A DNA stretch of 64,000 nt. Origin: Pelagicoccus sp. SDUM812005 (GTDB lineage Bacteria > Verrucomicrobiota > Verrucomicrobiia > Opitutales > Opitutaceae). Positions 34,344 to 60,042 of the stretch are shown here, piece by piece. The stretch covers positions 1 through 64,000 of the forward strand of contig NZ_JARXIA010000023.1 of the NCBI RefSeq assembly GCF_031127875.1. The letters run 5' to 3'. The stretch's first letter is position 1; every line of letters begins with the position of its first letter. The notes beneath the pieces are model-generated. The model was not told the DNA's origin and searched no databases. It worked only from the letters and a program-made list of their open reading frames with translations. The position numbers and the translations under genes were made by a program.

Positions 34344-35270
34344 ATGGCCCGAGCTATTTGGAAAGGCAGCATCTCCTTCGGACTGGTCAACATTCCGGTT
34401 GCGCTATTTTCGGCCGAACAGCGCTCCGACATACAGTTCCGCATGATCGACAGCCGCAACAACGCACGGGTGCGCTACGAACGCATAAACGAATCCTCAG
34501 GGGAGGAGGTACCCTGGAACTCCGTCGTCAAGGGCTACGAATACGAGGATGACAAATATGTACTTCTTTCCGACGAGGAAATGGCCAAGGTAAGCCCGGA
34601 GGCTACCAAAACCATAGATATCGAAGACTTTATAAGTCTCGAGGAGATCGACCCGCTTTACTTCGACAAGCCCTACTACTTGGAACCTGCAAAGCACGGG
34701 GAAAAAAGCTACCTCCTGTTGGCACGATCCCTGGAGGCCTCCGGCAAAGCGGGAATCGCCCGCGTGGTGATTCGTTCTCGCCAACACCTTTGCGCCATCC
34801 TCTCACGCAACGGTCACCTTGTGATCGAACTGCTGCGCTTTCCCCAAGAACTACGAGACCTCAACGATTATCAGATCCCCGACGACAGCCTCAAACGCAA
34901 CAAGCTCACCAAGCGCGAAGTCGACTTGGCTATCCAGCTCATCGAATCGATGACCCTAGAGTGGGATCCGGGAAGGTACCGCGACGAGTACAGCGATAAG
35001 CTTCTCGATTGGATCAATGAAAAAATTTCCGAGGGACACCTCAGCACCGCCCCCGATCTAGTGGACGAAGACGATGACAACGATTCCGCCGAGGTGGTCG
35101 ATCTTATGGACTACTTGAAACGCAGCGTCGCATCCCGCGAAAACGAGGGCACCGACGGAAAGAAGAAAGCAAAGAAGACCACCAAAAAAGCCACGAAGAA
35201 AACCGCCAAGAAGACCACCCGAAAAACCGCTAAGAAACGACCTTCCGCTTCCCGAAAAAAGGCAAGCTAG
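34344..35270 (+). CDS. ku: Non-homologous end-joining protein Ku
   Basis: A 308-residue bacterial Ku homodimer subunit that binds DNA ends. The Ku core covers residues 1-255 (ARAIWKGSISFGLVNIPVAL, DPLYFDKPYYLEP, ILSRNGHLVIELLRFP). The C-terminal 45 residues are a low-complexity Lys/Thr tail with many KKTTKK units, like the lysine-rich tails that aid DNA binding in other bacterial Ku proteins. It lies seven bases after the small Rho-N-like gene and 39 before ligD. Confidence 0.93.
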   Translation: MARAIWKGSISFGLVNIPVALFSAEQRSDIQFRMIDSRNNARVRYERINESSGEEVPWNSVVKGYEYEDDKYVLLSDEEMAKVSPEATKTIDIEDFISLEEIDPLYFDKPYYLEPAKHGEKSYLLLARSLEASGKAGIARVVIRSRQHLCAILSRNGHLVIELLRFPQELRDLNDYQIPDDSLKRNKLTKREVDLAIQLIESMTLEWDPGRYRDEYSDKLLDWINEKISEGHLSTAPDLVDEDDDNDSAEVVDLMDYLKRSVASRENEGTDGKKKAKKTTKKATKKTAKKTTRKTAKKRPSASRKKAS

Positions 35271-35309
35271 CTACTTACTCGTCGCCAGTTTACAACTACA
35301 TCTCAGACG

Positions 35310-39765: not shown

Positions 39766-42700
39766 ATGAAAATAAGAATACCGCTCCTGGTCTCCCTACT
39801 GGCGACCTCGCTATGGTGCGCCCAAGCTCCTACCCAAGCGCGAGCATCGTCTCAGCTTAACTATACCTATATATACTTCGAAAACGGATACCCAACCCCA
39901 CTCTCGACGCGACGCCCCCAATCGCAGGCCAACGTCGCCGCTCGCAACAATCCTGACCTCGTCATCCAAACCGGTTACTACAACCTCAAGTTGGAATGCG
40001 ACACCATGCAGCTTGCCGGATACAACGCAGCCAACGGATCCGACTACCTTTCGGCCCTCACCGAAGATGTCACCACCTTCACTCCAGCCACGCTTAACCT
40101 CTTCGTTTACGTTAACGGAACGAGATACCAATGCACATCGGGTATCGTTCAGAATAGCGCAGACCAGCTCGTTCGCCTCATCGAAAGCGGACAATACGTG
40201 CAACGATTCGACCACCTTGGCTTGGTCTTCACCGATAGCCAAGGAAACCAGCTAGGAGTCACCGGCCGCCTAGAAGTCACAGCATGGGCCGACCACGTGA
40301 CCTTTCTGCTGGACTTCGTCGACGTACCAAACGTGGAACGTACCACCATACAACTCATAACTCCCTCGGGGACCCAACTCCTTTCCGACACCCTCGCGGA
40401 CCACACCAGCTTAACGCTCGAGCCCCACACCGACACCAAGCTCGAAGATCGAGCTGCTGCAAACTACATAACAGCTGCAAGCGCCCTGCCCAGTGGCACC
40501 CCCCTCGCAACCAGCTTCGACTCGGAAGAAGATGCCTTCAAAATCGACATTCCAAATAATCCCATTTCCTACCCCGCCGACAAGGATCGAGTCGACGAGA
40601 TCCAAGTCACCGTAACGAACCCGACCAGCAACGCTATCGACCTTCCACTCATCTTCGACCAAGGCAGAGGGACCGCTATTACGGGTACCATGATGATGCT
40701 GGCCAACCAAGACGGAAGCCCCCTTGGCATCCCCGTACAAATCTCTAAAAATTGGCATACCTCCCACACAACCTTGCACATGGGGTCATGGCTACGCGGA
40801 TACACCATGATCCCCCTCGAAGCAGGCGAGACGAGAACCTTCAAACTGCGCGTCGTCTATGGATTCTACGCCGGAGGTGACATCGCCGCCGCTACCCATA
40901 GCTTCCTTTCCGTCATCGGATGGTCCACCAACTCTAGCTGGAAATGGGACGAATCCGCCCTCGGAGCATGGGGCGAAGCGTTCACCTACGATCCCACCCA
41001 ACATGCAGCAGGAGCCTTCATGGCAGACGTTCGTCCCAACTTCACCACCAGCAGAAACAACGGAGAATACGGTTGGACCGAGAACACCGGCGGCGGAGAC
41101 TTCCTCGTATACTACGACAACGCCAATACCTTCCGCTGGGCAAAAAAACTAAAAACATGCTACCTCTGGGCAGGTCCGCTCCTTACGAACGTCCTGTATT
41201 CAGGAACCACCGACGACGATAAGATCAAGTTCACCTACCAAGCTCGGTCCGTCGGAACCACGGACTACCACCGCCGTTTTCATAAATACAAATACGAGTT
41301 CCTCCAGGACGTCATCAACCCGACTCGCCTTACCTACTTCTCGATGGCGACAGACTACTATATCGGACCCGAATTCACGACTTACTACCGAGGAAACAAC
41401 AGCGGCCTCCTCTCCAGCTACACCGCCGACCCCGGTGGCAACGAATACGTCGATACTCCCCTGCTCTTCGACAGCCGCTGGCTCTCGATCGACGATACCA
41501 CGACATTCGGCGGAGACACATGCTACGCCAACCGCGGCATCCTTTCCCTCTCCTCCAAACTCAACGGAGCTAGCCTGCAATCCCATATGCATCGCTACGG
41601 TCGCACCTGGGGCGACGATCGAATGCAATTCGAGTTGAGCGCCAACTCCGTTAGCCGCTCCTACTCCGCAGGGGACGTCGTCGAGGGCGAAATCGAATTC
41701 ATCATGCCAGCGAAAACCGCAGCAGACTACTGGGGTGACGATGCAGAATTCCAATCGCGCCTCGCGTCCTACTCGAACAATTGGAGCGCCGTGCACGATG
41801 AATTTAGATACAACCGAAACCTTAGCGTCACCGCAAACCAAGGCACGCTCCTAAGCAGCTACCCAATCGAAATCGCTTCCACCTCCAATACCGTCCTAGC
41901 CGACTTTACCATAAACGCAGGTGGCATCGGCCACGTGCCGATGGTACTGAAAAACGTGGACTCCAACATATCCAATATTCAAGTACAACGCTACCTTAAT
42001 GGAGCATGGACCTGGTACGACGAAGGTTCGATTACAGAACACGACTACTACCAGGGCTACTTGAACGCCAACGGAAACATGGATTACGCCTTCAGCCTGA
42101 AGCGCCCGAACTCGGACCTAAGCAGCTCCTGGCGTATCCGAATTCTCGGACAAGGCGGCCCCACCACTGGCGGCCTGACATCCCAGGACATCGGAGCCGT
42201 CGGAGCCAGCGGAAGCACCTCCCTGTCCAACGGCACCTACACCGTAGCGGGATCCGGAGCCGACATCTGGAACACCGCGGACGAATTTCGATTCGTGCAC
42301 GACAGCTTGGAGGGCGACGGCGAAATCATCGCTCGCGTCCTTAGCGTCGAAAACACCAACGCCTGGGCGAAAGCTGGCATCATGATCCGCGAAAGCCTCG
42401 ACGCCAATTCCAAGTTCGTCTCCGTCGTCCAGAGGCCCGACAATCAAGTTTGCCTGCAATGGAGATCCGCCACCGGCGGCAACGCCGCATGGAACGCCTC
42501 CCTCCTTGGCGGTACCGCTTCCGCCAAATACCTGCGCTTGGTCCGCTCCGGAAACAGCTTTGCCGGGTACTATTCCACCAACAGCGCAACCGGCCCCTGG
42601 ACCCAGATCGGAAGCGCCCAAAACATCTCAATGAACTCCTCGGCCTACGCGGGGCTGGCTGTAACATCCCACAACGACGGCACGCTTTGCAGCGCCGTCT

Positions 42701-43119
42701 TCGACACCCTGTCGATCTCCAGCGGCAGCTCCGTACCGACCAGCACCGCCCAAGCCGAAAGCTACACTTCGACTTCAGGCTGCTCGACCCAGAGCGCCCA
42801 CGCTGGATACACCGGTTCCGGATACGTCGACATGGGCGGCAACGGATCCTACTTCGAGTGGAACAACATCGACGGAGGAAACGGCGGGAACGCCACGCTC
42901 ACCTTCACCTACGCCACCAGCAAGGCCCGTTCCTGCCTAATCAGCGTAAACGGAACCCCCGCCGGCTCCGTGGCATTCGCAGCCACCGGCGCCTGGACTG
43001 CATGGCAGAGCGACTCGATCACCGTAAATCTATCCAGCGGAAATAATACCGTCCGCGTAACCGCCGACACCGCGGCCGGCGGACCCAACATAGATAAACT
43101 GGAAGTATCAGGAAACTGA
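39766..43119 (+). CDS. Giant secreted protein of an unrecognised family with two C-terminal carbohydrate-binding-type modules
   Basis: A 1,117-residue exported protein with a signal peptide (about residues 1-27). Residues about 30-795 form a large domain I cannot assign (YIYFENGYPTP, QTGYYNLKLECDTMQL, GYTMIPLEAGETRTFKLRV, SFLSVIGWSTNSSWKWDE). It is clearly paralogous to the protein at 44843-48055. Residues about 800-985 resemble a DUF1349/concanavalin-like module (DEFRFVHDSLEGDGEIIARV, WAKAGIMIRESL). Residues about 993-1117 resemble a CBM6/CBM35 beta sandwich (AESYTSTSGCSTQSAHAGY). A strong terminator follows at 43149. Neighbouring GH28 and GH29 genes suggest a polysaccharide substrate; a new lyase, hydrolase or binding protein is possible. 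Confidence 0.75.
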   Translation: MKIRIPLLVSLLATSLWCAQAPTQARASSQLNYTYIYFENGYPTPLSTRRPQSQANVAARNNPDLVIQTGYYNLKLECDTMQLAGYNAANGSDYLSALTEDVTTFTPATLNLFVYVNGTRYQCTSGIVQNSADQLVRLIESGQYVQRFDHLGLVFTDSQGNQLGVTGRLEVTAWADHVTFLLDFVDVPNVERTTIQLITPSGTQLLSDTLADHTSLTLEPHTDTKLEDRAAANYITAASALPSGTPLATSFDSEEDAFKIDIPNNPISYPADKDRVDEIQVTVTNPTSNAIDLPLIFDQGRGTAITGTMMMLANQDGSPLGIPVQISKNWHTSHTTLHMGSWLRGYTMIPLEAGETRTFKLRVVYGFYAGGDIAAATHSFLSVIGWSTNSSWKWDESALGAWGEAFTYDPTQHAAGAFMADVRPNFTTSRNNGEYGWTENTGGGDFLVYYDNANTFRWAKKLKTCYLWAGPLLTNVLYSGTTDDDKIKFTYQARSVGTTDYHRRFHKYKYEFLQDVINPTRLTYFSMATDYYIGPEFTTYYRGNNSGLLSSYTADPGGNEYVDTPLLFDSRWLSIDDTTTFGGDTCYANRGILSLSSKLNGASLQSHMHRYGRTWGDDRMQFELSANSVSRSYSAGDVVEGEIEFIMPAKTAADYWGDDAEFQSRLASYSNNWSAVHDEFRYNRNLSVTANQGTLLSSYPIEIASTSNTVLADFTINAGGIGHVPMVLKNVDSNISNIQVQRYLNGAWTWYDEGSITEHDYYQGYLNANGNMDYAFSLKRPNSDLSSSWRIRILGQGGPTTGGLTSQDIGAVGASGSTSLSNGTYTVAGSGADIWNTADEFRFVHDSLEGDGEIIARVLSVENTNAWAKAGIMIRESLDANSKFVSVVQRPDNQVCLQWRSATGGNAAWNASLLGGTASAKYLRLVRSGNSFAGYYSTNSATGPWTQIGSAQNISMNSSAYAGLAVTSHNDGTLCSAVFDTLSISSGSSVPTSTAQAESYTSTSGCSTQSAHAGYTGSGYVDMGGNGSYFEWNNIDGGNGGNATLTFTYATSKARSCLISVNGTPAGSVAFAATGAWTAWQSDSITVNLSSGNNTVRVTADTAAGGPNIDKLEVSGN

Positions 43120-43148
43120 TAACAACTAAGCTCACCAAACAAGGGCCA

Positions 43149-43177
43149 AGCGACATCTCTCGGGATGTCGCTTTTTT
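43149..43177 (+). terminator. Intrinsic terminator after the giant secreted protein gene
   Basis: AGCGACATC-6-GATGTCGCT is followed by a T run, 30 bases after the stop. Confidence 0.9.
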
Positions 43178-43294
43178 GCGCCGGCAAGGTAAGGCTTCCA
43201 AAACGCACACCGGCACCCAACCTCCCAAGTTGGCTCTCGCTCCGCCCTCCTCCTTCTCGTGATTCCGTCCCTTCCCCAGAGGCCCTTATCCAGC

Positions 43295-43328
43295 AAAAAA
43301 AGAGCCGACTCCCTCACGGAGCCGGCTC
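43295..43328 (-). terminator. Intrinsic terminator after the first GH28 gene
   Basis: The minus-strand stem GAGCCGGCTCC/GGAGTCGGCTC (one mismatch) is followed by seven T. Confidence 0.9.
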
Positions 43329-43356
43329 TCGGCAACGTTCCGCTACGGAACCGAAG

Positions 43357-44799
43357 CTATTCTTCAGTAAATCCAACAACGTCTTCCAAAACGATCCGCT
43401 CACGAGCATCCGGTTCCCGAAGCTCCAACGCTACATTTCTGAACGTAACATCCTTTGCATGCCGTACATACGCGCCCCAGGCCGGAAGCACGCCGAAAAA
43501 GAACTGTTCGGGATAGCGTGCGATGTCTTCGGGAACGACTTGAGCCGCATCTTCTTCGGTCCCTCCTCCCGGAAACGAAATCCTAATGTTTTCCAAAAGA
43601 ACGTCCTCTACCAGATGACCGGGAATTCCAGATATCATGATCGGGCCCGATTTCGTCTTCGCCATCTTCTCCCACTCCTCGTCCGAACGCTTCATCAGGT
43701 CCTTCTTCATATGCGTAGCGCGATAAGCATTCTCGCGCGTCTCCACCGTTACGACCGCATTCACATCGCGAATACGCACATTGCGAAGAGTCCCAACCGG
43801 CACGCCTTCCGGCTCCACGTCCGCATTGTACTTCTGCCCCTTGAAGTTCTCATAGGAACGTCCGCGATTGCCCAAACGAATGAAGATCGGATTCCCAACG
43901 TCCTCCATGACAATTCGAGAAATATCCACGTTCTCCAAACGCCCTCCGTCAACCAGCTGCAACTTGATCGCTCCCATTGGACTATCGTAAAAATAGCAGT
44001 TCGTTACCTTGATATCTATAAATCCGCCACGAGAGGAAGTCCCCAGCTTCAAAGGGGCCGTATTGCTGGCTACCTTGCAGTTGCGAATCACGAAATTGCG
44101 GCACGGGTTCTTGGAACTCTTCAAGCAAATCCCGTCGTCGCCCGCATCGATATCGCAGTTTTCGATCAACACATTCTCGCAACCATCCAAGTCTAGACCA
44201 TCGTTATTGTATCCATTATTCCGAAACCGAACCGTGACGCCATCGATATGGATGTCCTTGCTATCGACGAAATGCAATCCCCAGGAAGCGGGCCTTCTAT
44301 AAGTCACGCCCGACAAGGTTACGCGCTCGCAATTGATGATATTTAGCAGATGAGGCCGCGGGGACCCCTGCTTTCTCGGAAATGCCTCCGGCGTGCCACG
44401 CCCGTCGATTTCGCCCAAGCCCTCGATCCTGATATCGGTAGCGTCTACCGCGTAAATGAGGCAATGTCCGCTGCCCTCCCGCTTCTTTCCCATATCGTTT
44501 ACGTAATCGGCGATATCCTGGCTTCCCAGCAAGGTCGCTCCGTAATCGAGCGACAAGGTCACATGGCTCTTAAGCTTGATAGAGCCGATCTGATAATCCC
44601 CTGCTGGCACCCAAACCGTACCGCCCCCTTTCTCAGCGCAGGCATCGATCGTTTCCTGCAGGGCAAGCGTATCCATCGCAACACCATCCCCAACCGCTCC
44701 GTAATCCCTCACATTCAAGACCACTTCGCCGGAGGCGACCGCGGGCAAGCTTCCCAGAACGGAAAGCAATACTAGTATTTTTATAAAACAGTTCTTCAT
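43357..44799 (-). CDS. Secreted GH28-family glycosidase (polygalacturonase-like), copy 1
   Basis: A 480-residue GH28 parallel beta-helix enzyme with a signal peptide of about 24 residues, starting VRDYGAVGDGVAMDT. Catalytic Asp motifs are NNDGLDLDG (about 197-205) and DAGDDGICLKS (about 219-229). The usual GHG histidine motif is replaced by LGTSSRGGF, as in a non-classical GH28 branch. The substrate may therefore be a substituted galacturonan, rhamnogalacturonan or another uronide rather than plain pectin. It lies 43 bases after the paralogous giant secreted protein on the same strand, so the two are probably co-transcribed. Confidence 0.85.
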   Translation of the reverse strand: MKNCFIKILVLLSVLGSLPAVASGEVVLNVRDYGAVGDGVAMDTLALQETIDACAEKGGGTVWVPAGDYQIGSIKLKSHVTLSLDYGATLLGSQDIADYVNDMGKKREGSGHCLIYAVDATDIRIEGLGEIDGRGTPEAFPRKQGSPRPHLLNIINCERVTLSGVTYRRPASWGLHFVDSKDIHIDGVTVRFRNNGYNNDGLDLDGCENVLIENCDIDAGDDGICLKSSKNPCRNFVIRNCKVASNTAPLKLGTSSRGGFIDIKVTNCYFYDSPMGAIKLQLVDGGRLENVDISRIVMEDVGNPIFIRLGNRGRSYENFKGQKYNADVEPEGVPVGTLRNVRIRDVNAVVTVETRENAYRATHMKKDLMKRSDEEWEKMAKTKSGPIMISGIPGHLVEDVLLENIRISFPGGGTEEDAAQVVPEDIARYPEQFFFGVLPAWGAYVRHAKDVTFRNVALELREPDARERIVLEDVVGFTEE

Positions 44800-44842
44800 A
44801 TTGATAATTATTCTTTAGATTTACACAAACATTGCTTCATCC

Positions 44843-47800
44843 CTAATCCTGCAGCGCTATTTTCAGCTTCATGAAGAAGGCATCATCGTCCGGCGTCGTC
44901 GCGCGGACGCGCTCATAGTCTGCGTCAACGGTTTCCCTAGCGATTTCCGTTACCGCACCCTCCTTCCAGTTTAGGAAATCAACAGGCCGCGTATCCATAA
45001 TCGAGTACACGATCCCTCTATCCTCAGCGTCCCGACGCCGTTGGTAAACGAATTCCAGGCCTTCCTCCTTTCTCTGCAAAAGCGGAAACATCCCGCGATC
45101 TTCCCCTGAGAGCGGATTCCCGCCCAAGGCATACTCCACGAGATTCACCACCCCGTCCCGATCCGGGTCTGCCGATAGCTCCAAATCGCTTCCGGAAAGG
45201 CCCTTTGCTTGAGCCCAAACCTGGAACTGCTCCCCCGCGCTCAAACGGTTCGCAGCAAGAGAGATGCGGTCGACATTCGGGCCGCCCGCATCCGTATTCA
45301 CCGTAATACGGATCGTGTTCTCGCCAGCCAACAATGCTACCACGATCGTCTTCTCCTGCCAATTGTCCCAAGTGCCCGTCGAGCTAAAGACATGGGATCC
45401 GATCGCGATACCGTTAACCGTTATCGTACAGGATCGATCCGTTGCGGAGGCATATCGAAAGGTCAACTTCACCTCTCCACCAGCGCCGCCACCGACTCCT
45501 TCCCATTGCAGCCACGTGCCTGCGCCACCCATATCCATATAGCCAGCGCCCGAGTAACCAGGACTGTCAGTCCTCAGGAGACAGCCGGAAGTGGAGGTAT
45601 AGTCCTCCCCTTCTATCTCCGATTCGAGAGCCCCTTCTCCTCCTCCGTCATACACTGCATTGCCCAAAATACGGATTCGCCAACTTTCGCTCAAATCCTC
45701 GCTGGGACGCTTGAAACTAAACGCGCAATCGAGAGAGCCCTCCGCGTTATAGAATCCCTGAAAATAGTTTCGTTTATTAAATGAACCATCCTCGTACCAA
45801 ACCCATTCGCCATCCAAATAGCGCTGCACTCCGATAACCGCTTCCTTCGAAACGTTTCTCAAAATGACAGGTACATGGCCAATGCCTCCGCCATCAATGG
45901 TGAAGTCGGCCAAGACATCGCCAGACTCCGAAGAAATCTCCAAAGGATAATTGCTCAACACGGAACCTGTCGTCGCGACGACCTCAAGATCCCGATTGTA
46001 CCTGAATTCATCGTACACGGCACCCCATTCGCTGGTGTAAGCAGCCAAGCGGGACCTGAATTCCTCATCCGCGCCCCAATAGGATTCAGCGTTCTTCGGA
46101 GGCATCATGAACTCCATCTCGCCTTCCACCACATCGCCTGCCGCATAGGAACGGCCTACCGATTCGGAGCTGAGGTCGAAGAGCATCTTCGGCGTGCTGG
46201 CGCTCAACCCATACGGATGCATGTACAAGTCGAACGGTTCCCCGTTCAAGGTCGAGCTCAGGGCCAAAAATCCCCGATACGCATAGTTGACTCCTCCATT
46301 CCAGGCAGTCGTATCGTTAGGAATCACCCAGCTATCCCTAAACAAAAGCGGATCCCCCTTGTACTGATTGCCTCCAGGAGAGCTGGCGTAACTCTGAGTC
46401 AACCCCTCCGCACTCCCGTGGTGATAAGCGGTATGCTGCGGCCCGTTGTAGCCATCGGCTCCCATCTGAAAAAAGATAAGCCGCCTCGGGTCGGTCACGT
46501 CGTCCAAGAACTCGTAACGAAAGGCGTTGAACTTCCGGTGGTAGTCCAGGCCCGCCACTCCGCGCACCGTGTTTACGTAGCGGATCTTCCCGTCGTCGCT
46601 TATCCCCGAATACAAAACTTCCGTAACGTTCGGACCGGACCACTTGTAACAGGTCTTCATGAGTTTGCTAAAACGGAAGGTATTCGAACTGTCGTAATAC
46701 TGGAGGAAGTTGCCTCCCCCCATATTCTCCGTCCACCCGTGATCGCCGCCGCCCGTGCTGGTAGTAAAGGTAGGCCGCACATCGGCCATGTGAGCTCGCC
46801 CAGCATGACGAGTCGGATCATAAGTCAAGGATTCCCCCCAGGCTCCGAGGGCCGACTCGTCCCATTTCCAGTTCGCCTTATCGTTCCAGCCTACGATCGA
46901 AAGAAAGGAGTGAGATGCTGCCGCGACCGTGCCGTCGCTCCAGTACCCGTAGACCACTCGCAAGCGAAAGGTCTTGGACTCCCCCGGGGCCAAAGGAAGC
47001 ATCGTGTAACCGCGCAGCCAGGTTCCCATATGGACCGTATCCAAACTCTGGTGCCAGTTCTTCGAGATCTGCACCGGAATTCCCAGCGGGCTTCCGTCCA
47101 CTTCGGTCAAAAGCATAACCGTACCCGTAACCGCCCTCGCCGAAATCGGATCGAAGATCATCGGCACTTCGATCTCTTCATCCGTGGGATTTCTCACCGT
47201 AAACTGATATTCGTCCAACCGGTTGGTATCTCGAGGGTAGCTCACGCTTCCCGCTGGGACGATCGCCTTGATCGCCATCTCATCCGTATCGTACTCGGAA
47301 TCCAATGGTGATCCCGACCCTAGATCCAAGGCATCGCTCAGATAGTCGCCTACCTCCATCTGCTCGTAAGCGGTATCGGTGTGAGGACTCAGCGACAGAC
47401 GGGCCACATTCCCGAGCGCATCGGCCAAATGCTGCACGTTCGAGGGCGACACAACCTGAATCGTCGCTCGCGTGGCTCCCGGCACCTCTTCCAAATCGAG
47501 TTTGAAAGTAACGTGATCTGCCCATGCGGTAACTTCTAAACGAGGGTTGCCGACCAGCACGTTCCCATTCGCATCCTCAAAAACTAGCCCCAAGTGGTCG
47601 AAACGCTGCACATACTGCCCGCTTTCAATCAAGCGCACATACATTCGTCCTGTATTGTCCTGCACCACACCGGAAACGCAGCGGTAACGCGTGTCTCCAA
47701 CATACGCATACAAATTTAGGGTTGCCGGTGTGAATTGCGTAACGTCCTCCGTCAATGCCGACTCGTAATCGCTTCCCTCGAGTGCGTCGTAGCCAGTAAG

Positions 47801-48055
47801 CTGCATCGTCTTGCACTCAAGCTTCAGACTATAGTAACCCGTCTGTACGATTAGATTAGGACTCTCCCGAGCAAGGGAGCTACCAGGCCAACCGACCCTC
47901 ATCGGATAACCATTTTCGAAACTAATATAAGTATAGTTTCGGTTCATCGCTGCATTCACCTCGGGCAAAGATCGCCCCAGCAAAACAAATACGGACAAGA
48001 GGAAAAAAGTTCTAAACACGACAGGGTAAAGGTTCGCAATCATTCGGGTTTTCAT
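44843..48055 (-). CDS. Second giant secreted protein of the same unrecognised family
   Basis: A 1,070-residue exported protein (signal peptide up to about residue 36, start chosen at MKTRMIANL). Residues about 40-785 align block by block with the 1,117-residue protein (YISFENGYPM, QTGYYSLKLECKTMQL, ALTEDVTQFTPATLNL, SFLSIVGWNDKANWKWDE). It lacks the DUF1349-like module and goes directly to the CBM6/CBM35-like sandwich (about 805-935, EDYTSTSGCLLRTDSPGYS). It then ends with a verrucomicrobial C-terminal module containing a calcium-type repeat (ADPDRDGVVNLVEYALG). It stands upstream of GH28 copy 1 in the same operon, and an operator-like palindrome lies 172 bases before the ATG. Confidence 0.75.
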   Translation of the reverse strand: MKTRMIANLYPVVFRTFFLLSVFVLLGRSLPEVNAAMNRNYTYISFENGYPMRVGWPGSSLARESPNLIVQTGYYSLKLECKTMQLTGYDALEGSDYESALTEDVTQFTPATLNLYAYVGDTRYRCVSGVVQDNTGRMYVRLIESGQYVQRFDHLGLVFEDANGNVLVGNPRLEVTAWADHVTFKLDLEEVPGATRATIQVVSPSNVQHLADALGNVARLSLSPHTDTAYEQMEVGDYLSDALDLGSGSPLDSEYDTDEMAIKAIVPAGSVSYPRDTNRLDEYQFTVRNPTDEEIEVPMIFDPISARAVTGTVMLLTEVDGSPLGIPVQISKNWHQSLDTVHMGTWLRGYTMLPLAPGESKTFRLRVVYGYWSDGTVAAASHSFLSIVGWNDKANWKWDESALGAWGESLTYDPTRHAGRAHMADVRPTFTTSTGGGDHGWTENMGGGNFLQYYDSSNTFRFSKLMKTCYKWSGPNVTEVLYSGISDDGKIRYVNTVRGVAGLDYHRKFNAFRYEFLDDVTDPRRLIFFQMGADGYNGPQHTAYHHGSAEGLTQSYASSPGGNQYKGDPLLFRDSWVIPNDTTAWNGGVNYAYRGFLALSSTLNGEPFDLYMHPYGLSASTPKMLFDLSSESVGRSYAAGDVVEGEMEFMMPPKNAESYWGADEEFRSRLAAYTSEWGAVYDEFRYNRDLEVVATTGSVLSNYPLEISSESGDVLADFTIDGGGIGHVPVILRNVSKEAVIGVQRYLDGEWVWYEDGSFNKRNYFQGFYNAEGSLDCAFSFKRPSEDLSESWRIRILGNAVYDGGGEGALESEIEGEDYTSTSGCLLRTDSPGYSGAGYMDMGGAGTWLQWEGVGGGAGGEVKLTFRYASATDRSCTITVNGIAIGSHVFSSTGTWDNWQEKTIVVALLAGENTIRITVNTDAGGPNVDRISLAANRLSAGEQFQVWAQAKGLSGSDLELSADPDRDGVVNLVEYALGGNPLSGEDRGMFPLLQRKEEGLEFVYQRRRDAEDRGIVYSIMDTRPVDFLNWKEGAVTEIARETVDADYERVRATTPDDDAFFMKLKIALQD

Positions 48056-48226
48056 GGGCATAAACGAATCAATGTCAGACAAGTTTCTTGAGGGCTAACC
48101 GCATCAACGATAGCTACCCCCAAAGCAGGGGACCACAGGGTAAAACAATATACCTAAATCCAGAGGAATTATCCATCCTCCATATACACGATATACTTCT
48201 TAAAACATCACGAGAACCAGATAGTA

Positions 48227-48350: not shown

Positions 48351-51300
48351 CTAAAACTCGAAGGTGTTGGTGAGCACGAAGGTGCGCGGGGCTTCGGCCT
48401 TTACGCGGGCGGCCGTTCCATCCGGCTGAGCGCGGATGACCTCAACGCCATCTCCCGCGAACAGGTTGCGGATATTAAGCTGAACTCTCCAATTAATAGT
48501 ATCGTTCTTGATTTTCTTGGATCGGCCGAACCACAAATCGTAAGTATGGTCATCTTGACCTTGGATAGGCTTGGTTACGTCCGGAGCAATAACGTCGCCT
48601 GGCAAGGTCGTAAGCGCATAGCCAATCGAGGCCGAATCAACGTAGCGGTAGGCCGAACCAATGTTCCAACCCCTCATCTTACCATCGGTGAAACGATAGT
48701 TCGTGATGATGTTTGCCCGCCATTCGCGAACCTCAGGATTATCCGCTCCATCCAAAGCCGTGTTCGAGAAATAGGCATTCCCGGCATAGGCTCCAAGGAT
48801 AAGCTGATTCCAGCCTGTGCCGCCAGCCAGCGGATCCTGAAGCGGGGTACGCAGCTTGTTAGCCCCAAAGATCGAGCCCTTTGCGTTCTCTACGCTCTCA
48901 AGAGCGTTCATCAGGCCGGTAAACACTTCCGTGAAACCGGGAGCCAGATTGGTACGAACCGCCTTCTGCTGGACGATGCTGGCAGAGATTCTCCAGTTCT
49001 TGGTGGGATTGAAGATCGTCTCGACCTCCAGACCCTCGCCCTTTACGTCCGCGGTATCGGCCAGAATCGACCAAAGCGCCGTCCCAACCGTAAAGCTTCC
49101 GTTTTGGTCGGGATTCGTTGGGTGAGGCGTATAGGAGAATTCTGCTGTATCCAACAAGTAACTATTGGGGAAGATCGCTTCATACGCTTCTCTCAGGTCC
49201 CATAGTTGATCTAGCGTCATGTACTCCTGACCCGCCGAGGTATTGACCTGGTCGATAATCCCATTCCCATCCGCGTCGAATGCGGGATTGTCAAACTGAC
49301 GGTCGCCGTCCTTGTCGTAACGCAAGGTCTCGCGATACAACTCGCCCCAACCGCGTATCAAGGATACGTTCGTCGTCCAGTTGTATCCAAAGGAAACCGG
49401 ATGGAACTGCTCGTCTCGGATCGTCGACTCGTACCAGTTGACTCGCGTGATCAGCTTTTCATCGAAGGCCGTGACGGTGAAGCCATAGTCAATACTCTCG
49501 CCAGATGGACTCGGCAAGGGATTGCCGCGGATATTCCCCCCCGACAAGTTAGGAATGAAATTCGAGGAATCTCCATAGTGGAAGGACAAGCTCGTACCGT
49601 CCGGCAGCCAGGATTTTGGCAGCTTCGCGACGAGGTTATAGGAGAAGTTATTGCCCTCGACCGTGTTGATCGGGCTGGAATCAAGGTTGAAGTCCTCGGC
49701 ACCAAACAAACGGATCCCTTCGGCATCGGCCGGAGCGGTAGCTACCGCATTTTCCCACTTGTCCTTACGCCAACCCAAATTGGCAACGAGATGGTCCTTC
49801 AAAAGGAAGCTCTGCAGGTTTAGGGCCTGGCTGCTTACCTTAGTCTCCTCCATTCGACCGGAGAAGTTGACCCACTCCGGCGTATAGGTTCCAACCTTGG
49901 TAACACCCTCAGTCATGTCGAAGTACGCCAAAGGCACTTCCAAGCCAGCAGGATATTCAAGGGTAACGCCTGGCTCCACTCCAGTGATGATAACGTCCTC
50001 GATGGTCAGGTTCGGATCGGTGAATACGTTTAGCTGCTGAGGTCCCACATAGAATATATTCGAGTTTTGACGCTGAAACGCAGTGGCATCGGGCTGGATC
50101 AGATTCACCGCAGCATTGTTTCCATTGCTCGCCATCCGGTACTGCTTATTCACGCTATCAACCCTATTCTCATCGAATAGCCCCACGGCGCGGTGCGAGC
50201 CCAACCAACGTAGAATACCATTATCGAACTTATCTTCGAAATCGATCTGCGCGAAAGCGGTAGCGCGAATCGTCTCCCTATCCGTCGATAGATCGGTTGT
50301 ATTCGAAGACTTGGAAGCGATAAAGGGACGCCCGTAGTTCGGGTTCGTCGCGCCGAACAAGTCGTTTGGACCGATCGGCAATGTCTTGTTCACGTCGAAA
50401 TAGATCGTGGGCGAACCACCCATAACGAAACTATTGCGACTCCAGTTCTGTGCATCGTATGCAAGCTCGAGGCCAAAGTTTCCATCCTTGCTTTCCGTTG
50501 TGAACGAAAGGTTCAACGCGTCGAAATCGTTATCGTAACGATCCAAACCGCCCGAATAGAGGTTCTTCCGGAAGTCGAAGGTTTCCAGGTTCGTCAATCC
50601 TTGGGAAGTGTAGCCGGTAACCAGGTCGCCGTAATTAGGCATACCGATAAACCGTACGGCGGCGTCGGATCCCGTCCAGTTTCCGTCAGGGTCATAGGTT
50701 ATATTTCCGATGGGAACATTGCCATTTCCGTCGGGAGCGCCCCAAGCGCCACCATCTACCGTAGTCTGGAACGCATAGGCTGGCAGCCCATTCCTAGAGG
50801 TCCCATCAAAAACGTTGGCCCAAAAGCGAGCGCTGACTTCGGAGCCCGCCGCCGTACCGGAGGTCAGGATATCGATCTGTTCGCCGTTCGCATCGAGACC
50901 CTCGAAGTCTACGTTCCCGTTCACGACGTTGCCAAATCCATCCAAGCTAAAGCGCTCGCCGTTCGGCATCTCAATGCCAATGGTATTGTCGATCAAAGTA
51001 GACAAGGTTTCCAAAGGTCCCAACGAAGACGGTGGAGTCGACTTGATCTTTCCCGTCTCGAAATTGAGCTTCAGGAAGGTGTTGCTCTCATCGAGCAGAC
51101 GCCACTTCATCGCTCCATAGAATCGGGTCGAATCCCGGAACGCTGAGTTTTGCAGATACTCCTGATCTTCCTTCAACGCAGCGAACCGCACTGCAAATCG
51201 ATCCTCTGCAAGCACTCGGTTTACGTTAAAGTCAACACGCGTACTTAGATTTCCGTCAAACTCGTCCGTGGACAAACGCAACCCGAGTTCCGTAGAGTCA

Positions 51301-51875
51301 GAGAAGTTCGCCTGAGCAACATCGCTATTGATAATGCCTCCCGGAGAGCCAAGACCAAACAGGAACGAGTTGGCGCCGCGCTGGATGTCGACTCGATCTG
51401 TTATATAAGAATCAAAAGGGATGTCCGTCTCGAAGAAACCGCGCGTACGGGTGGGAGCCGCAAGAGCTCGGATACGGTTTCCGGCTGCAGGATTTTGACG
51501 TATTTCGCCATCGTTCTGAACCCCGGAACTATCCGTTCCAGTAAAGTTTCCGCTGGGTCCTGCAGTGTCCGTATTGGTGGTATATACCAGCAACTCTTCG
51601 GTGGACGTTGCCGCAAGGTCCTCTAGCATTTGCTTGGTTACTGCTTGAATCGAAGTGCCGATGTCTTCGATCTTGGAATTGAGTCGGCCACCAGCAAGCG
51701 TCTGGGTGGCGCGATAACCGTCATCGGAATCCGCGTTCACTTCGAACGGAGACAAAACGAAGATCTCTTCTTCTTCCTCCTCTTGTCCGTACAAAACTCC
51801 GGTTGCTGCCACAGCGCAGAGGGGTAACAACCACCGCAATCGGCGATTGGAACATACTGTTTGTTCTTTATTCAT
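48351..51875 (-). CDS. TonB-dependent outer-membrane receptor (SusC-like)
   Basis: A 1,174-residue outer-membrane transporter. A signal peptide of about 30 residues is followed by an acidic run and a TonB-box-like IFVLSPFEV. The plug domain covers about 45-190 (IEDIGTSIQAVTKQMLEDL, TDRVDIQRGANSFLFGLG, GGIINSDV). A 22-strand barrel ends in NTFEF with a terminal Phe. It would import oligosaccharides or complexed nutrients using TonB energy. The receptor lies between the giant secreted proteins and a fucosidase, so uptake of fucose- or uronate-containing oligomers is a reasonable inference. No SusD-like partner is seen, as is usual in Verrucomicrobiota. Confidence 0.9.
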   Translation of the reverse strand: MNKEQTVCSNRRLRWLLPLCAVAATGVLYGQEEEEEEIFVLSPFEVNADSDDGYRATQTLAGGRLNSKIEDIGTSIQAVTKQMLEDLAATSTEELLVYTTNTDTAGPSGNFTGTDSSGVQNDGEIRQNPAAGNRIRALAAPTRTRGFFETDIPFDSYITDRVDIQRGANSFLFGLGSPGGIINSDVAQANFSDSTELGLRLSTDEFDGNLSTRVDFNVNRVLAEDRFAVRFAALKEDQEYLQNSAFRDSTRFYGAMKWRLLDESNTFLKLNFETGKIKSTPPSSLGPLETLSTLIDNTIGIEMPNGERFSLDGFGNVVNGNVDFEGLDANGEQIDILTSGTAAGSEVSARFWANVFDGTSRNGLPAYAFQTTVDGGAWGAPDGNGNVPIGNITYDPDGNWTGSDAAVRFIGMPNYGDLVTGYTSQGLTNLETFDFRKNLYSGGLDRYDNDFDALNLSFTTESKDGNFGLELAYDAQNWSRNSFVMGGSPTIYFDVNKTLPIGPNDLFGATNPNYGRPFIASKSSNTTDLSTDRETIRATAFAQIDFEDKFDNGILRWLGSHRAVGLFDENRVDSVNKQYRMASNGNNAAVNLIQPDATAFQRQNSNIFYVGPQQLNVFTDPNLTIEDVIITGVEPGVTLEYPAGLEVPLAYFDMTEGVTKVGTYTPEWVNFSGRMEETKVSSQALNLQSFLLKDHLVANLGWRKDKWENAVATAPADAEGIRLFGAEDFNLDSSPINTVEGNNFSYNLVAKLPKSWLPDGTSLSFHYGDSSNFIPNLSGGNIRGNPLPSPSGESIDYGFTVTAFDEKLITRVNWYESTIRDEQFHPVSFGYNWTTNVSLIRGWGELYRETLRYDKDGDRQFDNPAFDADGNGIIDQVNTSAGQEYMTLDQLWDLREAYEAIFPNSYLLDTAEFSYTPHPTNPDQNGSFTVGTALWSILADTADVKGEGLEVETIFNPTKNWRISASIVQQKAVRTNLAPGFTEVFTGLMNALESVENAKGSIFGANKLRTPLQDPLAGGTGWNQLILGAYAGNAYFSNTALDGADNPEVREWRANIITNYRFTDGKMRGWNIGSAYRYVDSASIGYALTTLPGDVIAPDVTKPIQGQDDHTYDLWFGRSKKIKNDTINWRVQLNIRNLFAGDGVEVIRAQPDGTAARVKAEAPRTFVLTNTFEF

Positions 51876-52177: not shown

Positions 52178-53947
52178 TCAGCGCGTCGGACGAATAGACA
52201 GCAAGCTCAAGCTAGCCGTGTCGGGGTTTCCATCTACAAGGCTGACGCTGAGGGTATGCCTTCCAGGGGAATCGAATCGCAGCAGCCCCATCGGGTATCG
52301 ATGGTAAACGTGCGACGCATTTTGATTGTTCTGCAGGATCCGGCCTTCACCGCCCTCGATCCTCCAGGTCAATCGCTCCGTCCCCTTGTAGGTAAGGTCG
52401 ATGTAATAGTCGCCCGGCTCCGCCACATCGACAGTCCATACAGCCTTCCCGCCATTCGACCATTTGCTTACCTGGTTCATGTGCTTCCATTCGCCAAACT
52501 TCTCCATCCAACGGATCTCTTCCTTCACCGCGTTTTCGACCTCTGCGAACTCGACATACATATCGGACCGCGAATTGGGAAGCACCGCCAACGTTTGGTC
52601 CACCTCAGGGGCTCCGGAAAGCTCGACCTGGACAAGCGTCGCAACCTTGGATCGCTGGACATCCGCCAAGTCCAAGGCCACCCATCCAGATTTCTTGCGC
52701 CACTCCACCGGAACAGACTTCCCCTTAGCTACAACCTTTGCCGACTTGATGTCGTTGCGAAGGCCGGGGAGATAGATCAATTCGTCATCCGGCCAGTCGA
52801 ATACGACGAGATTCAATGTATTCCCTTGCACGGTGACGTCCCCCCAAGGCAAGGCACGTCCCCAGGGCGACGGGTCCGCACCGTAAACGACGCTCGGGTT
52901 CTCCTGTATCCACCTACCGGATTCAAGCAAGTACTTTACCGCTTCCTCAGGCACCCTCCCAGATCCGTCCGGCCCAATATTCAGCAAGTAGGTTCCGCCA
53001 CGAGCGACCGTCGAAACGACTCGCTTGAGTATTTCGTGTGCATCCTTCCAGTTGCTGTCGTACCAAGCGTAAGACCAGGAGTCGTTAGTGGTATCGCAGG
53101 ACTCCCAGAGGCCATCAGCATTTCGCACCGGTACATCCATGTCACCCTTGCTCGCATAGTCGCCCATGCCATGTCCGATACGGCTGCAAAGCAGCGCATT
53201 TGGCTGAACCTCCGCAACATACCGAGCCAACTTCTCGGCATACTCCTTCGGGATATTTCCCGGCGTATCGAACCAGATGTAGTCCAAATCTCCATACTGC
53301 GTGCAAATTTCCTTCACCTGCGGGAAGCACTTTTCCTCAAAGTATTGGGCAAAGGTCGCTGGCGTCCCATCCTCGTTGACCTTCGGTCCTCCAGAGCCGC
53401 CCGGCGCCGTCCAATCCTGATTGTGCGAATAGTAGAATCCGAATCCGAGACCGAACTCCTCGCAGGCTTCCGCCAACTCCTTCATGGGATCCCTCTTAAA
53501 CGGCGACGCATCCACGATATTGAAAGGGTGCTCGGACTTGAACATTGCAAACCCCTCGTGGTGCTTGGAGGTGATGATGATCCACTTCATGCCCGCCTCC
53601 TTGGCCACCCTTGCGATGTAACGCGCGTCGAATTCGCTCGGGTTAAAGTCAGCGGCGACCTTCATGTACTCCTTGGGCGGGATTCCCGCCACGCGCGGAT
53701 TCATGATCCACTCCCCAATCCCGTAGTAGGTCTTTCCCTCCCACTTGCCGGCAAGCTTCGAATACAGGCCCCAGTGAATGAACATGCCATAGTTCCCGTC
53801 CCGAAACAAGGCCACGCGTTCGCTATCCGCAGCCCCTTGCCTCGTGGTTTCCCCACCCCACATCTCGTCCATGTTCTTGCTCCCAGCCAAACACTGCAGA
53901 GCAAAAGCAGCCATAAATCCTACCGTAAGTCTTTTAATCTTTTTCAT
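52178..53947 (-). CDS. Secreted GH29 alpha-L-fucosidase
   Basis: A 589-residue GH29 enzyme with a signal peptide (residues 1-22). The barrel starts GMFIHWGLYSKLAGKW, with IIITSKHHEGFAMF and the nucleophile Asp227 in YIWFDTPGN. RGGTYLLNIGPDGSGRVP is the usual end-of-barrel motif. About 100 residues at the C-terminus (YYIDLTYKGTERLTWRIEGG) form a beta-sandwich binding-type module. It would remove alpha-L-fucose from glycans in the periplasm or outside the cell. The gene is upstream of the TonB receptor on the same strand with a 302-base gap. Confidence 0.9.
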   Translation of the reverse strand: MKKIKRLTVGFMAAFALQCLAGSKNMDEMWGGETTRQGAADSERVALFRDGNYGMFIHWGLYSKLAGKWEGKTYYGIGEWIMNPRVAGIPPKEYMKVAADFNPSEFDARYIARVAKEAGMKWIIITSKHHEGFAMFKSEHPFNIVDASPFKRDPMKELAEACEEFGLGFGFYYSHNQDWTAPGGSGGPKVNEDGTPATFAQYFEEKCFPQVKEICTQYGDLDYIWFDTPGNIPKEYAEKLARYVAEVQPNALLCSRIGHGMGDYASKGDMDVPVRNADGLWESCDTTNDSWSYAWYDSNWKDAHEILKRVVSTVARGGTYLLNIGPDGSGRVPEEAVKYLLESGRWIQENPSVVYGADPSPWGRALPWGDVTVQGNTLNLVVFDWPDDELIYLPGLRNDIKSAKVVAKGKSVPVEWRKKSGWVALDLADVQRSKVATLVQVELSGAPEVDQTLAVLPNSRSDMYVEFAEVENAVKEEIRWMEKFGEWKHMNQVSKWSNGGKAVWTVDVAEPGDYYIDLTYKGTERLTWRIEGGEGRILQNNQNASHVYHRYPMGLLRFDSPGRHTLSVSLVDGNPDTASLSLLSIRPTR

Positions 53948-54161: not shown

Positions 54162-54236
54162 CCTACAAACTGGTTGATCTACCCTCCCTACGACGGTTTG
54201 ACTCCCCCTTCCCTCGACCTAAGCTTATTTCCCGCA

Positions 54237-56258
54237 ATGCCCCTCCCTTTCCCCCTTAACCCTTTCACCGCGAGGCCGCCCCTCCGGCAGCTTATCCTGC
54301 TGCTAGCCTGCTTCGCCATGGCCTGCATCGCCCACGCGACTCCGCAAGGCATCAGCAAACTTTCCCTCGAGGAACTGCAGACGCGCCGTCACGAGATCGA
54401 AGCCGAACTGACGCAGCTCGCGAACTTCAACCTTCGCGTAGGCATCGGTTCGATCTGCTTCCGTTCCATGCCCCAGTCCAGCGAGGACGCGCCGGAATGG
54501 GTGCAGATCGATTTCGACAAGGAGTACGAGATCGACCAAGTCGCCCTCGTCCCAGCAATCTGGAGAGACAACGAAAACGGCTACCGGGACGACGGCTTCC
54601 CCACCGAATTCCTAATCGTCGCCGGCAATTCGAAGACGCCCCACGGAACCATTATCAAGGAGGTCAAAGCCGGTCCGCACCACATACCGCGAGTCGCTCC
54701 CCTTATCATCCCCCTAGAAAACGTAACCGCATCCTGGGTACGTATCGAATCCAAAAAACTCACGCCGAGATTCCATGACGGAAGCTACATTCTGCAGTTC
54801 TCCGAAATCATGGTCTTCAGCGAATCCGACAACGTCGCGCTCAACCAACGGGTATCCTCATCCTCCGAACAGAGAGCCGGCGTCGGAGCTGCCTATCGTC
54901 GCGCCAACCTAGTCGACGGATTTCTTCCCTACATCATGGATGCGGCGCAGGGGACGAAGAGCAATCCCTACTTAAGCGGTATCGGAATCGGCGAAACATC
55001 CAGCATCATATTCGACCTGGTGGACGCCCACCCCATAACCAAACTTCGGATACACACCATAGAGCAAGCAGACACCGTCCCGCACGCCCTCCAACCAAAT
55101 TTCGCTCTTCCCAAACGCTTCCTATTCGAAGGAGCCAACAACCCTGACTTTTCCGACGCCATCCTCCTCTGGGACTTCAAACACGAGGACCTCTTCGAAA
55201 TATCGCCGATCATCACCAAACGAATCGAAGCCTCCCCTCCTGTCCGCTATATCCGCCTCCGCCAAATTGAACCGTTTATATTCGAAGGGTACGCCGACAA
55301 CGGCATGCCACTCATCGGCACTCGAATCGGATTCGCCGAAGTCGAAATCTTCTCCCGCGAAACAAACGTGGCCAAAGGCAAACCCGTAAGCTCCAGCTTC
55401 AACGACCCTCTCTTCGAACGCCACCGCCCCCTCTCGCTTGCCACCGACGGACACAACATATTCGGCGAGATCCTAGGGTTCAAAGAGTGGCTAAACCAAC
55501 TCGCCCGCCGCCACGACCTCCAGTACGAACTCCCCTTCATCAACCAAGCGATTGAGCTCCGCGTTGAATCCCAAAAACGAAACCTCCGCATTTGGACCTG
55601 GAGCGCCGTCGCATTCGCCACCCTCGCCGTATTCATATTCCTGATCGACCGCATCCTCCGCCAACGCGCCATCTACCGAACCCGCGAACGCATCGCAGCC
55701 GACTTACACGACGAACTCGGAGCCAACCTACACGCCATCGCGCTTCTCGGAGACCTCGCCCTTGCCTCGAAGGACAAGCCCCAGAAATCCGCTACCTACG
55801 TCGAACGCATCCGCGTCCTCGTCCGGCGCACCGGGGCCGCCGTCAAGCGCTGCACCAACATGCTCGAAACGAAAGGCCTATACCAGGACCTACCCACGGA
55901 AATGAAACAAATCGCCAAGCGACTCATGCCCGACCTCGAACACACCCTAGAAATCGAGGGCGAAAATTTTCTATATAAAGTAAAGCAGCGGAAGCGGATC
56001 GACCTTTTCCTTTTCTATAAAGAAAGCCTCATCAATCTCCTCAGGCACTCCAACGCCACCCAGGCCCGCTCGAAGCTAACCATCACTTCCAAAGACCTCT
56101 CCATCGAAATAGCCGACAACGGCAAAGGACTCCCCGCCCCACACGCAAGCGCCCCGCCTCGCTCCCTAGCGCGGCGAGCCCGGCTAATCGGCGGAAAGGT
56201 CACCTTATCTTCCAACGAAACAGGAGGCACCTCCATAAAACTGAAGATGAACCTCTAA
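54237..56258 (+). CDS. Sensor histidine kinase with discoidin-type extracellular domains
   Basis: A 673-residue membrane kinase. After a signal peptide (LILLLACFAMACIAHA) come two beta-sandwich F5/8-type (discoidin) domains, about 60-200 and 210-395 (WVQIDFDKEYEIDQVALVPA; SSIIFDLVDAHPITKLRIHT). A transmembrane helix follows (about 451-474), then a HisKA_3 domain with His491 in ADLHDELGANL and an ATPase domain (LINLLRHSNA, IADNGKGLP). The start at MPLPF is chosen for the signal peptide. Discoidin domains bind sugars, so it may sense glycans outside the cytoplasm. The response regulator follows 24 bases later. Confidence 0.85.
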   Translation: MPLPFPLNPFTARPPLRQLILLLACFAMACIAHATPQGISKLSLEELQTRRHEIEAELTQLANFNLRVGIGSICFRSMPQSSEDAPEWVQIDFDKEYEIDQVALVPAIWRDNENGYRDDGFPTEFLIVAGNSKTPHGTIIKEVKAGPHHIPRVAPLIIPLENVTASWVRIESKKLTPRFHDGSYILQFSEIMVFSESDNVALNQRVSSSSEQRAGVGAAYRRANLVDGFLPYIMDAAQGTKSNPYLSGIGIGETSSIIFDLVDAHPITKLRIHTIEQADTVPHALQPNFALPKRFLFEGANNPDFSDAILLWDFKHEDLFEISPIITKRIEASPPVRYIRLRQIEPFIFEGYADNGMPLIGTRIGFAEVEIFSRETNVAKGKPVSSSFNDPLFERHRPLSLATDGHNIFGEILGFKEWLNQLARRHDLQYELPFINQAIELRVESQKRNLRIWTWSAVAFATLAVFIFLIDRILRQRAIYRTRERIAADLHDELGANLHAIALLGDLALASKDKPQKSATYVERIRVLVRRTGAAVKRCTNMLETKGLYQDLPTEMKQIAKRLMPDLEHTLEIEGENFLYKVKQRKRIDLFLFYKESLINLLRHSNATQARSKLTITSKDLSIEIADNGKGLPAPHASAPPRSLARRARLIGGKVTLSSNETGGTSIKLKMNL

Positions 56259-56980: not shown

Positions 56981-58363
56981 TTACCGCTGCGTGAAGTCCT
57001 GCACGTCTTCCAGGATAACGCGCTCCCGCAAGTCCGGGGCTCGCGCGCTCAGGCGCACGTTGCGGAATTCGACGTTCCTAGCATGCCGAATATAAGCGCC
57101 CCACGCAGGTAGCGTCCCGAAGAAGAAAGCCTCCGGATACTGGGCCTCCCGCTCGGGAACGACCCTTGCCGCGTCCTCAGCCGTGCCGCCGCCGGGAAAG
57201 GAGATTTCGATATTTTCGAGAAGGACGTCCTCGATATAATGCCCCGGGATCCCAGAAATCATGATACCGCAACGCTTCGGATCGTCGCTCACCACCGTGG
57301 CCTTCAGGTTGCTGATATGTATATCGCGCACGATCCCCGGAGGCACGCCCTCCGATTTCGCATCGGTCGCATAGATTTGCTCGGTGGGCGCGTCATAGGC
57401 TCGCCCTCGATTTCCAAGGCGAATGAACAGCGGCCCTTCCACGTTGTTTGCCACGATATTTTGGATACGAATTCCTTCGATCAAACCACCGTCTACGATC
57501 ATCAGCTTTATCGCTCCCATTCGCGTATCCGAAAAGTCGCAGTCCGTTACCAGCATATTGCGGAATCCGCCCCGCGAGGAAGTGCCCAGCTTGAAGGCCG
57601 AGGTGTGGCTCACCACCCGACAGTTCCGCACCACGAAGTTCTCGCACAGGCGCGTACTGGTGCTCTTGGGACAAATGGAATCGTCGCCCGTCACGATGTT
57701 GCAGTCCTCGATCAACACGTTCTTGCAGCCGTCCAAATCCAAGCCGTCGTTATTCGTATTCACATGGCTATCGATCGTAATCCCGCGAAAAATCAAGTTG
57801 TCGCAATCGATCATGTGCGTGCACCACGAGGCCGCGTTCTTTAGCGTGATCCCCTCGAAGGTCACATTCTGGCAATTCACGAAGCGAATAAGCATCGGAC
57901 GGTCCCCCAACGAACCGTCTTCGAGCTTCACCGGAAATGTCTCGCGATGGCCGCGTCCATCGATGCCCCCCTTGCCGCTTAGCTTCACGTTGCTAGCGTT
58001 CTCAGCGAAAATAAGACATTCGTCGAAGGCTGGAGCCTCGATCGCGGGATAAACGTCTCGCGCATAGTCGTCAATAGACTTGCTACCGAGCAACTCCGTC
58101 CCCTCGCCCAAATGCAGCTCTAGGTCGCTTTTCAGCTTCAAAGTTCCCACCACATAGCGACCCGCCACAACCTTGATCACGCTTCCCGGCTCGGCCCGAT
58201 CGATAAGCGATTGGAAGGCCTTCGTCTCCAAGGCCCGGCCATCCCCCACCAAGCCTAAGCGGCCCGGCGAGACAACGATCTCCGCGGCAGCGCGCACGCA
58301 TACCTGCGCGACGGCGAGCGCGAAGAGTAAAAAGAAGAAGGACCTTAGAAGGGGAAGTTTCAT
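56981..58363 (-). CDS. Secreted GH28-family glycosidase, copy 2
   Basis: A 460-residue GH28 enzyme with a signal peptide (SFFFLLFALAVAQVCVRAAA). Catalytic Asp motifs are NNDGLDLDG (near 200) and TGDDSICPKS (near 224). As in copy 1, the GHG motif is replaced by LGTSSRGGF. The two copies are similar throughout, including the ends (EDVLLENIEISFPGGGTAED, AWGAYIRHARNVEFRNV), so they come from a duplication and act on related substrates. I use the ATG at 58363 because the signal peptide starts there. It is the last gene of the four-gene minus-strand run from 62889, 133 bases after the propeller gene. Confidence 0.85.
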   Translation of the reverse strand: MKLPLLRSFFFLLFALAVAQVCVRAAAEIVVSPGRLGLVGDGRALETKAFQSLIDRAEPGSVIKVVAGRYVVGTLKLKSDLELHLGEGTELLGSKSIDDYARDVYPAIEAPAFDECLIFAENASNVKLSGKGGIDGRGHRETFPVKLEDGSLGDRPMLIRFVNCQNVTFEGITLKNAASWCTHMIDCDNLIFRGITIDSHVNTNNDGLDLDGCKNVLIEDCNIVTGDDSICPKSTSTRLCENFVVRNCRVVSHTSAFKLGTSSRGGFRNMLVTDCDFSDTRMGAIKLMIVDGGLIEGIRIQNIVANNVEGPLFIRLGNRGRAYDAPTEQIYATDAKSEGVPPGIVRDIHISNLKATVVSDDPKRCGIMISGIPGHYIEDVLLENIEISFPGGGTAEDAARVVPEREAQYPEAFFFGTLPAWGAYIRHARNVEFRNVRLSARAPDLRERVILEDVQDFTQR

Positions 58364-58496
58364 GACGGGATAAAAGGTGATACCTGCAATCGAAAGCTTC
58401 GTAGCATAACAAAAGCCTTCGCGCCTCGACATCATCCGTTTGCACGACCAACGCCGATCGCTCTAGCTGGTCGAAAGCCCGCGTGTAACAGTCCTA

Positions 58497-60041: not shown

Positions 60042-60042
60042 G

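Follow-up and report, generated by a model that had tools for sequence, protein, structure and literature searches.

The window analysed here, a stretch of 64,000 nucleotides, contains two long genes encoding proteins A and B, which converge around a gene for a GH28 protein (Table 1). The initial annotation had reported two exported proteins of this kind sharing one domain, with a GH28 gene between them, and this arrangement was recovered, at 1117 aa for A and 1070 aa for B (the latter counted from the ATG at 48055; the ORF as listed begins at a TTG at 48082). The shared domain comprises about 770-780 residues, with 452 of 801 aligned residues identical and E = 0, far beyond chance. Calling the two proteins giant overstates such lengths, while some relatives reach 1.5-2.9 thousand residues. 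Both N-termini read by eye as being of signal-peptide type, and A and B are predicted to leave the cell.

The modules that follow the domain required more revision. Rather than differing between the proteins, as first described, they are of CBM6/CBM35 type in both, within a stretch that is 45% identical, and the CBM6 scores of 54.2 bits in A and 45.2 bits in B exceed the Pfam cut-off of 28.9. The DUF1349-like module previously noted in A is present but weak, being visible only when that piece is scanned alone and scoring 24.3 bits where Pfam requires 32.4. Of the calcium-repeat end ascribed to B, there is one DPDRDG (DxDxDG-like) motif, spotted by eye, whereas a Pfam scan of the tail gave no significant match (best E 0.14).

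Table 1. Features of the window around proteins A and B
Feature	Position	Strand	Basis or detail
Protein A	39766..43119	+	1117 aa: signal-type N-terminus, family domain, DUF1349-like, CBM6-type
Family domain of A	39850..42159	+	~residues 29-798; 56% identity to B; aligned with 50 more first-branch sequences
Most conserved block of A's domain	40678..41295	+	~residues 305-510; contains K328, N329, E404, D421, R423, D500, R503
DUF1349-like module of A	42163..42750	+	E 2.7e-5, under Pfam cut-off
CBM6-type module of A	42751..43104	+	PF03422, E 2.2e-14
Terminator-like hairpin after GH28	43300..43330	-	consensus scan
GH28 protein, 480 aa	43357..44799	-	PF00295, E 5.3e-21
Protein B	44843..48055	-	1070 aa: signal-type N-terminus, family domain, CBM6-type, C-terminal tail
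CBM6-type module of B	45263..45613	-	PF03422, E 1.4e-11
Family domain of B	45656..47944	-	alignment to A
TonB-dependent receptor-like protein	48351..51875	-	PF07715, E 5.7e-6
GH29 fucosidase-type protein	52178..53947	-	PF01120, E 2.6e-70
Histidine kinase-type regulator	54174..56258	+	
Response regulator	56283-56948		beside histidine kinase
Second GH28 protein	56981..58435	-	PF00295, E 9.4e-23
Second GH29-type protein	60925..62889	-	with 3keto-disac_hyd module

A gap of 43 nt separates the end of B from the GH28 gene, which has the same orientation; the two genes are likely to share a transcript ending at the hairpin, which by itself is no evidence (the consensus scan found 6 terminators against 9.7 in shuffled sequence, and 5 promoters against 5.3). 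The best NCBIfam model for the GH28 protein is rhamnogalacturonidase BT4146, at 279.7 bits and under its cut-off of 500. The cluster extends past the window (G000:C35:62000-101111; L069, L070), where genes for PhoD-type, SASA, S1, S1, esterase, GH116, GH28, regulator and PL8 proteins follow in that order, and then GH28, S1, GH95, S1, a second receptor-like protein, two unscanned ORFs and GH95. The whole cluster thereby encodes a PL8 and four GH28 proteins, together with GH29, GH95, GH116, S1, SASA and esterase types. The nearest solved proteins are a kappa-carrageenan sulfatase S1_16 (9fo1, 230 bits) for a sulfatase, a GH29 fucosidase (800 bits) for GH29, chondroitinase AC (267 bits) for PL8 and 5olp, a chain labelled pectate lyase (113 bits), for GH28; their specificities are not directly transferable to the cluster enzymes. 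The cluster also includes a 608-aa protein (58500-60323) with a sub-threshold DUF7133 match only and a relative in L049. Elsewhere in the window (34344-37895), a Ku gene is followed by an ORF that we take, by its likeness, to be a multi-domain LigD-type ligase, the two presumably forming an end-joining pair.

Comparison of the shared domain with known families

The shared domain had been described as matching no known family, and profile searches have placed it in no characterised family of Pfam, NCBIfam or the PDB sequences. In Pfam, nothing fell within the domain of A or B up to E 1, pieces of the domain scanned separately gave no match, and individual scans of 21 members, extended to E 10, showed no family common to more than one of them; PF02278, PF08124 and PF05426, sought in the domain of A, B and these 21 members, were not matched. 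NCBIfam likewise gave no match within the domain of A or B. The PDB sequences, which should presumably include the fucoidan lyase FdlA, matched A in the CBM6 region only and returned one chance elongation-factor row to two family profiles. Literature searches, some of them directed at new CAZyme families in this phylum, found no passage naming the domain. Judged by these databases, the domain appears to be undescribed, although it might correspond to a CAZy family that has no Pfam model.

Structure prediction and comparison with lyases and glycosidases, which the initial annotation had proposed, were carried out and gave poor models, with weak rows for the first of them. AlphaFold2, with three sequences as input, modelled the domain (770 aa) at a mean pLDDT of 40 and its core (439 aa) at 36, both low confidence. 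With VIA-align, the N-terminal part of the first model (~residues 34-199) gave super-sandwich rows at Z ~6-8.5, namely PL26, GH129, GH36 and LacZ domain 5, which we take to be galactose-mutarotase-like, and the last ~115 residues gave CCP5 peptidase rows at Z 8.1 at best. Neither reading was given weight; the model is poor and the super-sandwich scores lie near background, and the absence of a family from these rows is not counted against it.

The best of these rows (Z 8.5 over 143 aligned residues, rmsd 3.9) is to a PL26 lyase and bears on whether the domain might be, instead of a hydrolase, a polysaccharide lyase acting by beta-elimination next to uronic acids. We regard this as doubtful, and treat it as a sub-case of the carbohydrate-active reading developed below. 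The PL26 row stands barely above the other rows and the usual Z 7-8 background and comes from a low-confidence model. PL26 identity also lacks sequence support, in that A has no Pfam match to PcRGLX and the family profile aligns with the PL26 of the same genome, located with PF21345, at an hhalign probability of 0.4%.

Distribution, branches and conserved residues

Sampling of the phylum, taken to be Verrucomicrobiota, found the domain in 27 of 387 genomes, that of the window being one of them, and a profile search of a class sample found it in 26 of 384. Within the genome of the window, all 9 candidates were scored and none but A and B matched; in the phylum, class and second-branch surveys, at most two first-look candidates were scored per genome, and copies per genome are lower bounds. 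A search of genome contigs with six short patterns reached one relative, in a Kiritimatiellales MAG (L033), while viral contigs searched with two patterns and plasmids searched by tblastn at E 1e-3 yielded none. The patchy spread of the family suggests lateral transfer.

A 953-aa protein, whose C-terminal part was picked up by the profile search of the class, aligned with the family profile (694 columns; hhalign 98.6%, E 7e-16) and represents a second branch. Used as a query, this protein matched 9 of 387 genomes, comprising five with a second-branch gene, three with a first-branch protein and one with a short fragment, and the five second-branch proteins scored between E 2e-18 and 3e-12, confirming the link between the branches. 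Distant members of the first branch themselves share just 21-28% identity with A. The domain is a real family of two branches, one of them divergent. Next to one second-branch protein (L101:1327-4188) are genes for a PF05426 lyase and a GH78 rhamnosidase, and upstream of it is a gene for a 399-aa protein that Pfam does not match. In a quick tree, A and B cluster with a relative from another taxonomic family, and the three fall in a supported clade whose ten members come from several families; the paralogues A and B thus probably do not stem from a very recent duplication.

Across both branches, K328, N329, E404, D421, R423, D500 and R503 (A numbering) are conserved, as are P471, D637 and Q763, in ~90-100% of 51 first-branch rows and in all five second-branch rows, two of which are near-identical. 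The count omits the fragments L061 18592, L048 3-683, L096 and L102, as well as duplicates and L122. The conserved columns give four motifs, K-N-[WF], G-x(2,3)-E, D-x-R and D-x-x-R; H331 and S327 exceed 90% in the first branch and are not kept in the second, and among the 56 rows no Tyr or His is kept in at least 80% of both branches. Distant members consequently share a set of charged residues such as would be expected of a catalytic carbohydrate-active enzyme, and the retention of seven polar residues in both branches suggests a putative active site, the individual residues being candidates for catalytic roles. Conservation this strong could also serve a lectin or a structural domain.

The same columns bear on the class of enzyme. 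The carboxylates E404, D421, D500 and D637, together with the lack of a Tyr or His common to both branches, lead us to favour, tentatively, a glycoside hydrolase over a lyase; this preference is a weak one, and lyases may also employ lysine or arginine.

Fusions and gene neighbourhoods

In a Pfam scan of 39 family proteins, an S1 sulfatase was found in three, AXE1 in two and PF05426 in one, and the same scan gave SASA in one, a GH2-type domain in one and LamG in ten. The sulfatase precedes the family domain in L034, L035 and L036, all from one genus, and these fusions are hence counted as one event; they also suggest what the substrate of the family may be. In L067, a SASA esterase and a GH2-type domain are fused to the family domain. 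L041 carries an AXE1-type esterase and PF05426, the latter forming a domain of its own on the N-terminal side of the family domain; this fusion speaks for a lyase, as do the PF05426 lyase adjoining a second-branch gene and the cluster's own PL8 gene and its four GH28 genes. Nine members (L043, L047, L053, L056, L059, L060, L061, L063 and L065) show, when aligned to A, an insertion of ~220 residues that follows position ~193. The insertion is probably a LamG-type domain, given that nine insertions face ten LamG matches and that the one remaining match lies at the C-terminus of L037. Two long members, L048:4574-13264 (2897 aa) and L050:6360-10982 (1541 aa), bear autotransporter-type PATR repeats.

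Such an architecture raises the question of whether the domain is a non-catalytic platform that binds or scaffolds glycan and offers it to sulfatases and hydrolases. Enzyme domains are indeed attached in 5 of 39 members, nine members tolerate a large insertion at one loop, and the poor models contain many strands. A size of ~780 residues and seven charged or polar residues kept across two distant branches, however, exceed the usual need of a binding module, and the domain makes up nearly the whole of many members, L054 (819 aa) and L055 (818 aa) among them. We consider a platform improbable. The initial annotation had left the choice between an enzyme and a binding platform; the fusions, the neighbours and the conserved polar core support a polysaccharide-active role, and mere binding is less likely.

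The survey of genomic neighbours that it had proposed found sulfatase and fucosidase subtypes recurring beside family genes. Among 46 loci compared, the sulfatase subtype of L070:647-2542 lay near or inside family genes in nine (619-945 bits) and the window's GH29 subtype in four (751-866 bits). A window-like GH28 was found in one of the 46 (L103, where the family gene is followed by GH28 on one strand and then by GH29), and the GH28 pairing is therefore not general. With copies defined at E <= 1e-130 and the query copies of G000 omitted, 27 genomes contained 38 sulfatase copies, of which 10 were located within a family gene or no more than 10 kb from one, where 0.34 would be expected; for GH29 the figure was 3 of 25 copies (0.19 expected). 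In held-out genomes, the corresponding figures were 0 of 7 for the sulfatase (0.1 expected; 15 genomes searched, of which two hold the copies, both among the 11 with family genes in the class search) and 2 of 5 for GH29 (0.04 expected; 11 genomes). The sulfatase search scored at most 46 candidates in the 27 genomes and 84 in the held-out set. As the count was set up after the 46-locus comparison, only its held-out part, in which the sulfatase link did not recur, is independent, and the Poisson expectation ignores gene clustering and counts related genomes apart, which makes the subtype P values too small.

Irrespective of subtype, close relatives had 31 tallied neighbours, of which 7 were sulfatases (1.8 expected, P 0.003; the seven may include L033, which has no background), and the other relatives had 84, of which 14 were sulfatases (8.7 expected, P 0.06); GH29 accounted for 3 of the 31 (P 0.007) and 4 of the 84 (P 0.05). 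The sulfatase enrichment is modest, these genomes being rich in sulfatases, and so is that of GH29. ORFs were picked mechanically and the tallied neighbours by hand (31 of 41 and 84 of 159, mainly short ORFs being dropped), with expectations computed for loci at 85% of length. All ten sulfatases inspected (three fused, six near family genes and one on the window's contig) contain the C-x-P-S/T-R motif.

With sulfatases and SASA-type esterases as neighbours, the domain might alternatively be another decoration-removing enzyme, an esterase or a new type of sulfatase, that does not cut the chain. This is quite unlikely, because the columns conserved in both branches contain, by eye, no Ser-His-Asp set or formylglycine-type motif and because several clusters already encode S1 sulfatases and esterases.

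Proposed role in polysaccharide degradation

We consider that the domain probably constitutes the catalytic part of an uncharacterised family of secreted carbohydrate-active proteins directed at sulfated polysaccharides of fucose and uronic acid. The substrate is a guess, prompted by the joint occurrence of GH29, GH95, sulfatases, GH28 and PL8. According to this model, A and B would be exported and held on the substrate by their CBM6-type modules, and the large domain, with K328, N329, E404, D421, R423, D500 and R503 forming its active site, would cleave a glycosidic bond in a sulfated polysaccharide containing fucose and uronic acid. The S1 sulfatases, GH29 and GH95 fucosidases, GH28 proteins and PL8 lyase of the cluster would be partners in the breakdown, and the TonB-dependent receptor would import the products.

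Several described systems offer points of comparison. Fucose and rhamnose clusters of marine Verrucomicrobiota, as described in the available part of PMC8857213, contain GH29, GH95, S1 (including S1_16) and PF03629 proteins; the window's cluster has the same gene types and a sulfatase nearest to a solved S1_16, while the present domain is without mention in that part of the source. Microalgal fucoidan containing fucose, rhamnose and galacturonate, degraded by a Verrucomicrobium (PMC12872454), indicates that substrates of the proposed type exist. FdlA, for which the authors proposed a new lyase family (PMC9410043), acts on a fucose-containing sulfated polysaccharide, as proposed here, but it was set aside as a counterpart in view of its right-handed beta-helix; the family profiles, run against the PDB sequences, returned the single chance row given above. 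Any likeness to galactose-mutarotase-like super-sandwich domains would consist of the N-terminal rows from a model of pLDDT 40, and in sequence the family profile does not match the same-genome PL26. The domain represents a new family, but the system to which it belongs, the secreted enzymes of a polysaccharide-utilisation locus, is of a known kind.

A broader reading, for which we see the balance as even, is that the two deep branches form a new catalytic superfamily cutting sulfated fucose/uronate polysaccharides and sometimes carrying a preparatory sulfatase. If so, desulfation and chain cleavage would be combined on one secreted protein. Degrading sulfated fucose-rich polysaccharides is difficult, and the enzymes that Verrucomicrobiota use for them are only partly known; present in 27 of 387 genomes, without a Pfam or NCBIfam model or a solved relative recognised by sequence, and with candidate active-site residues that are testable, the family offers a concrete target.
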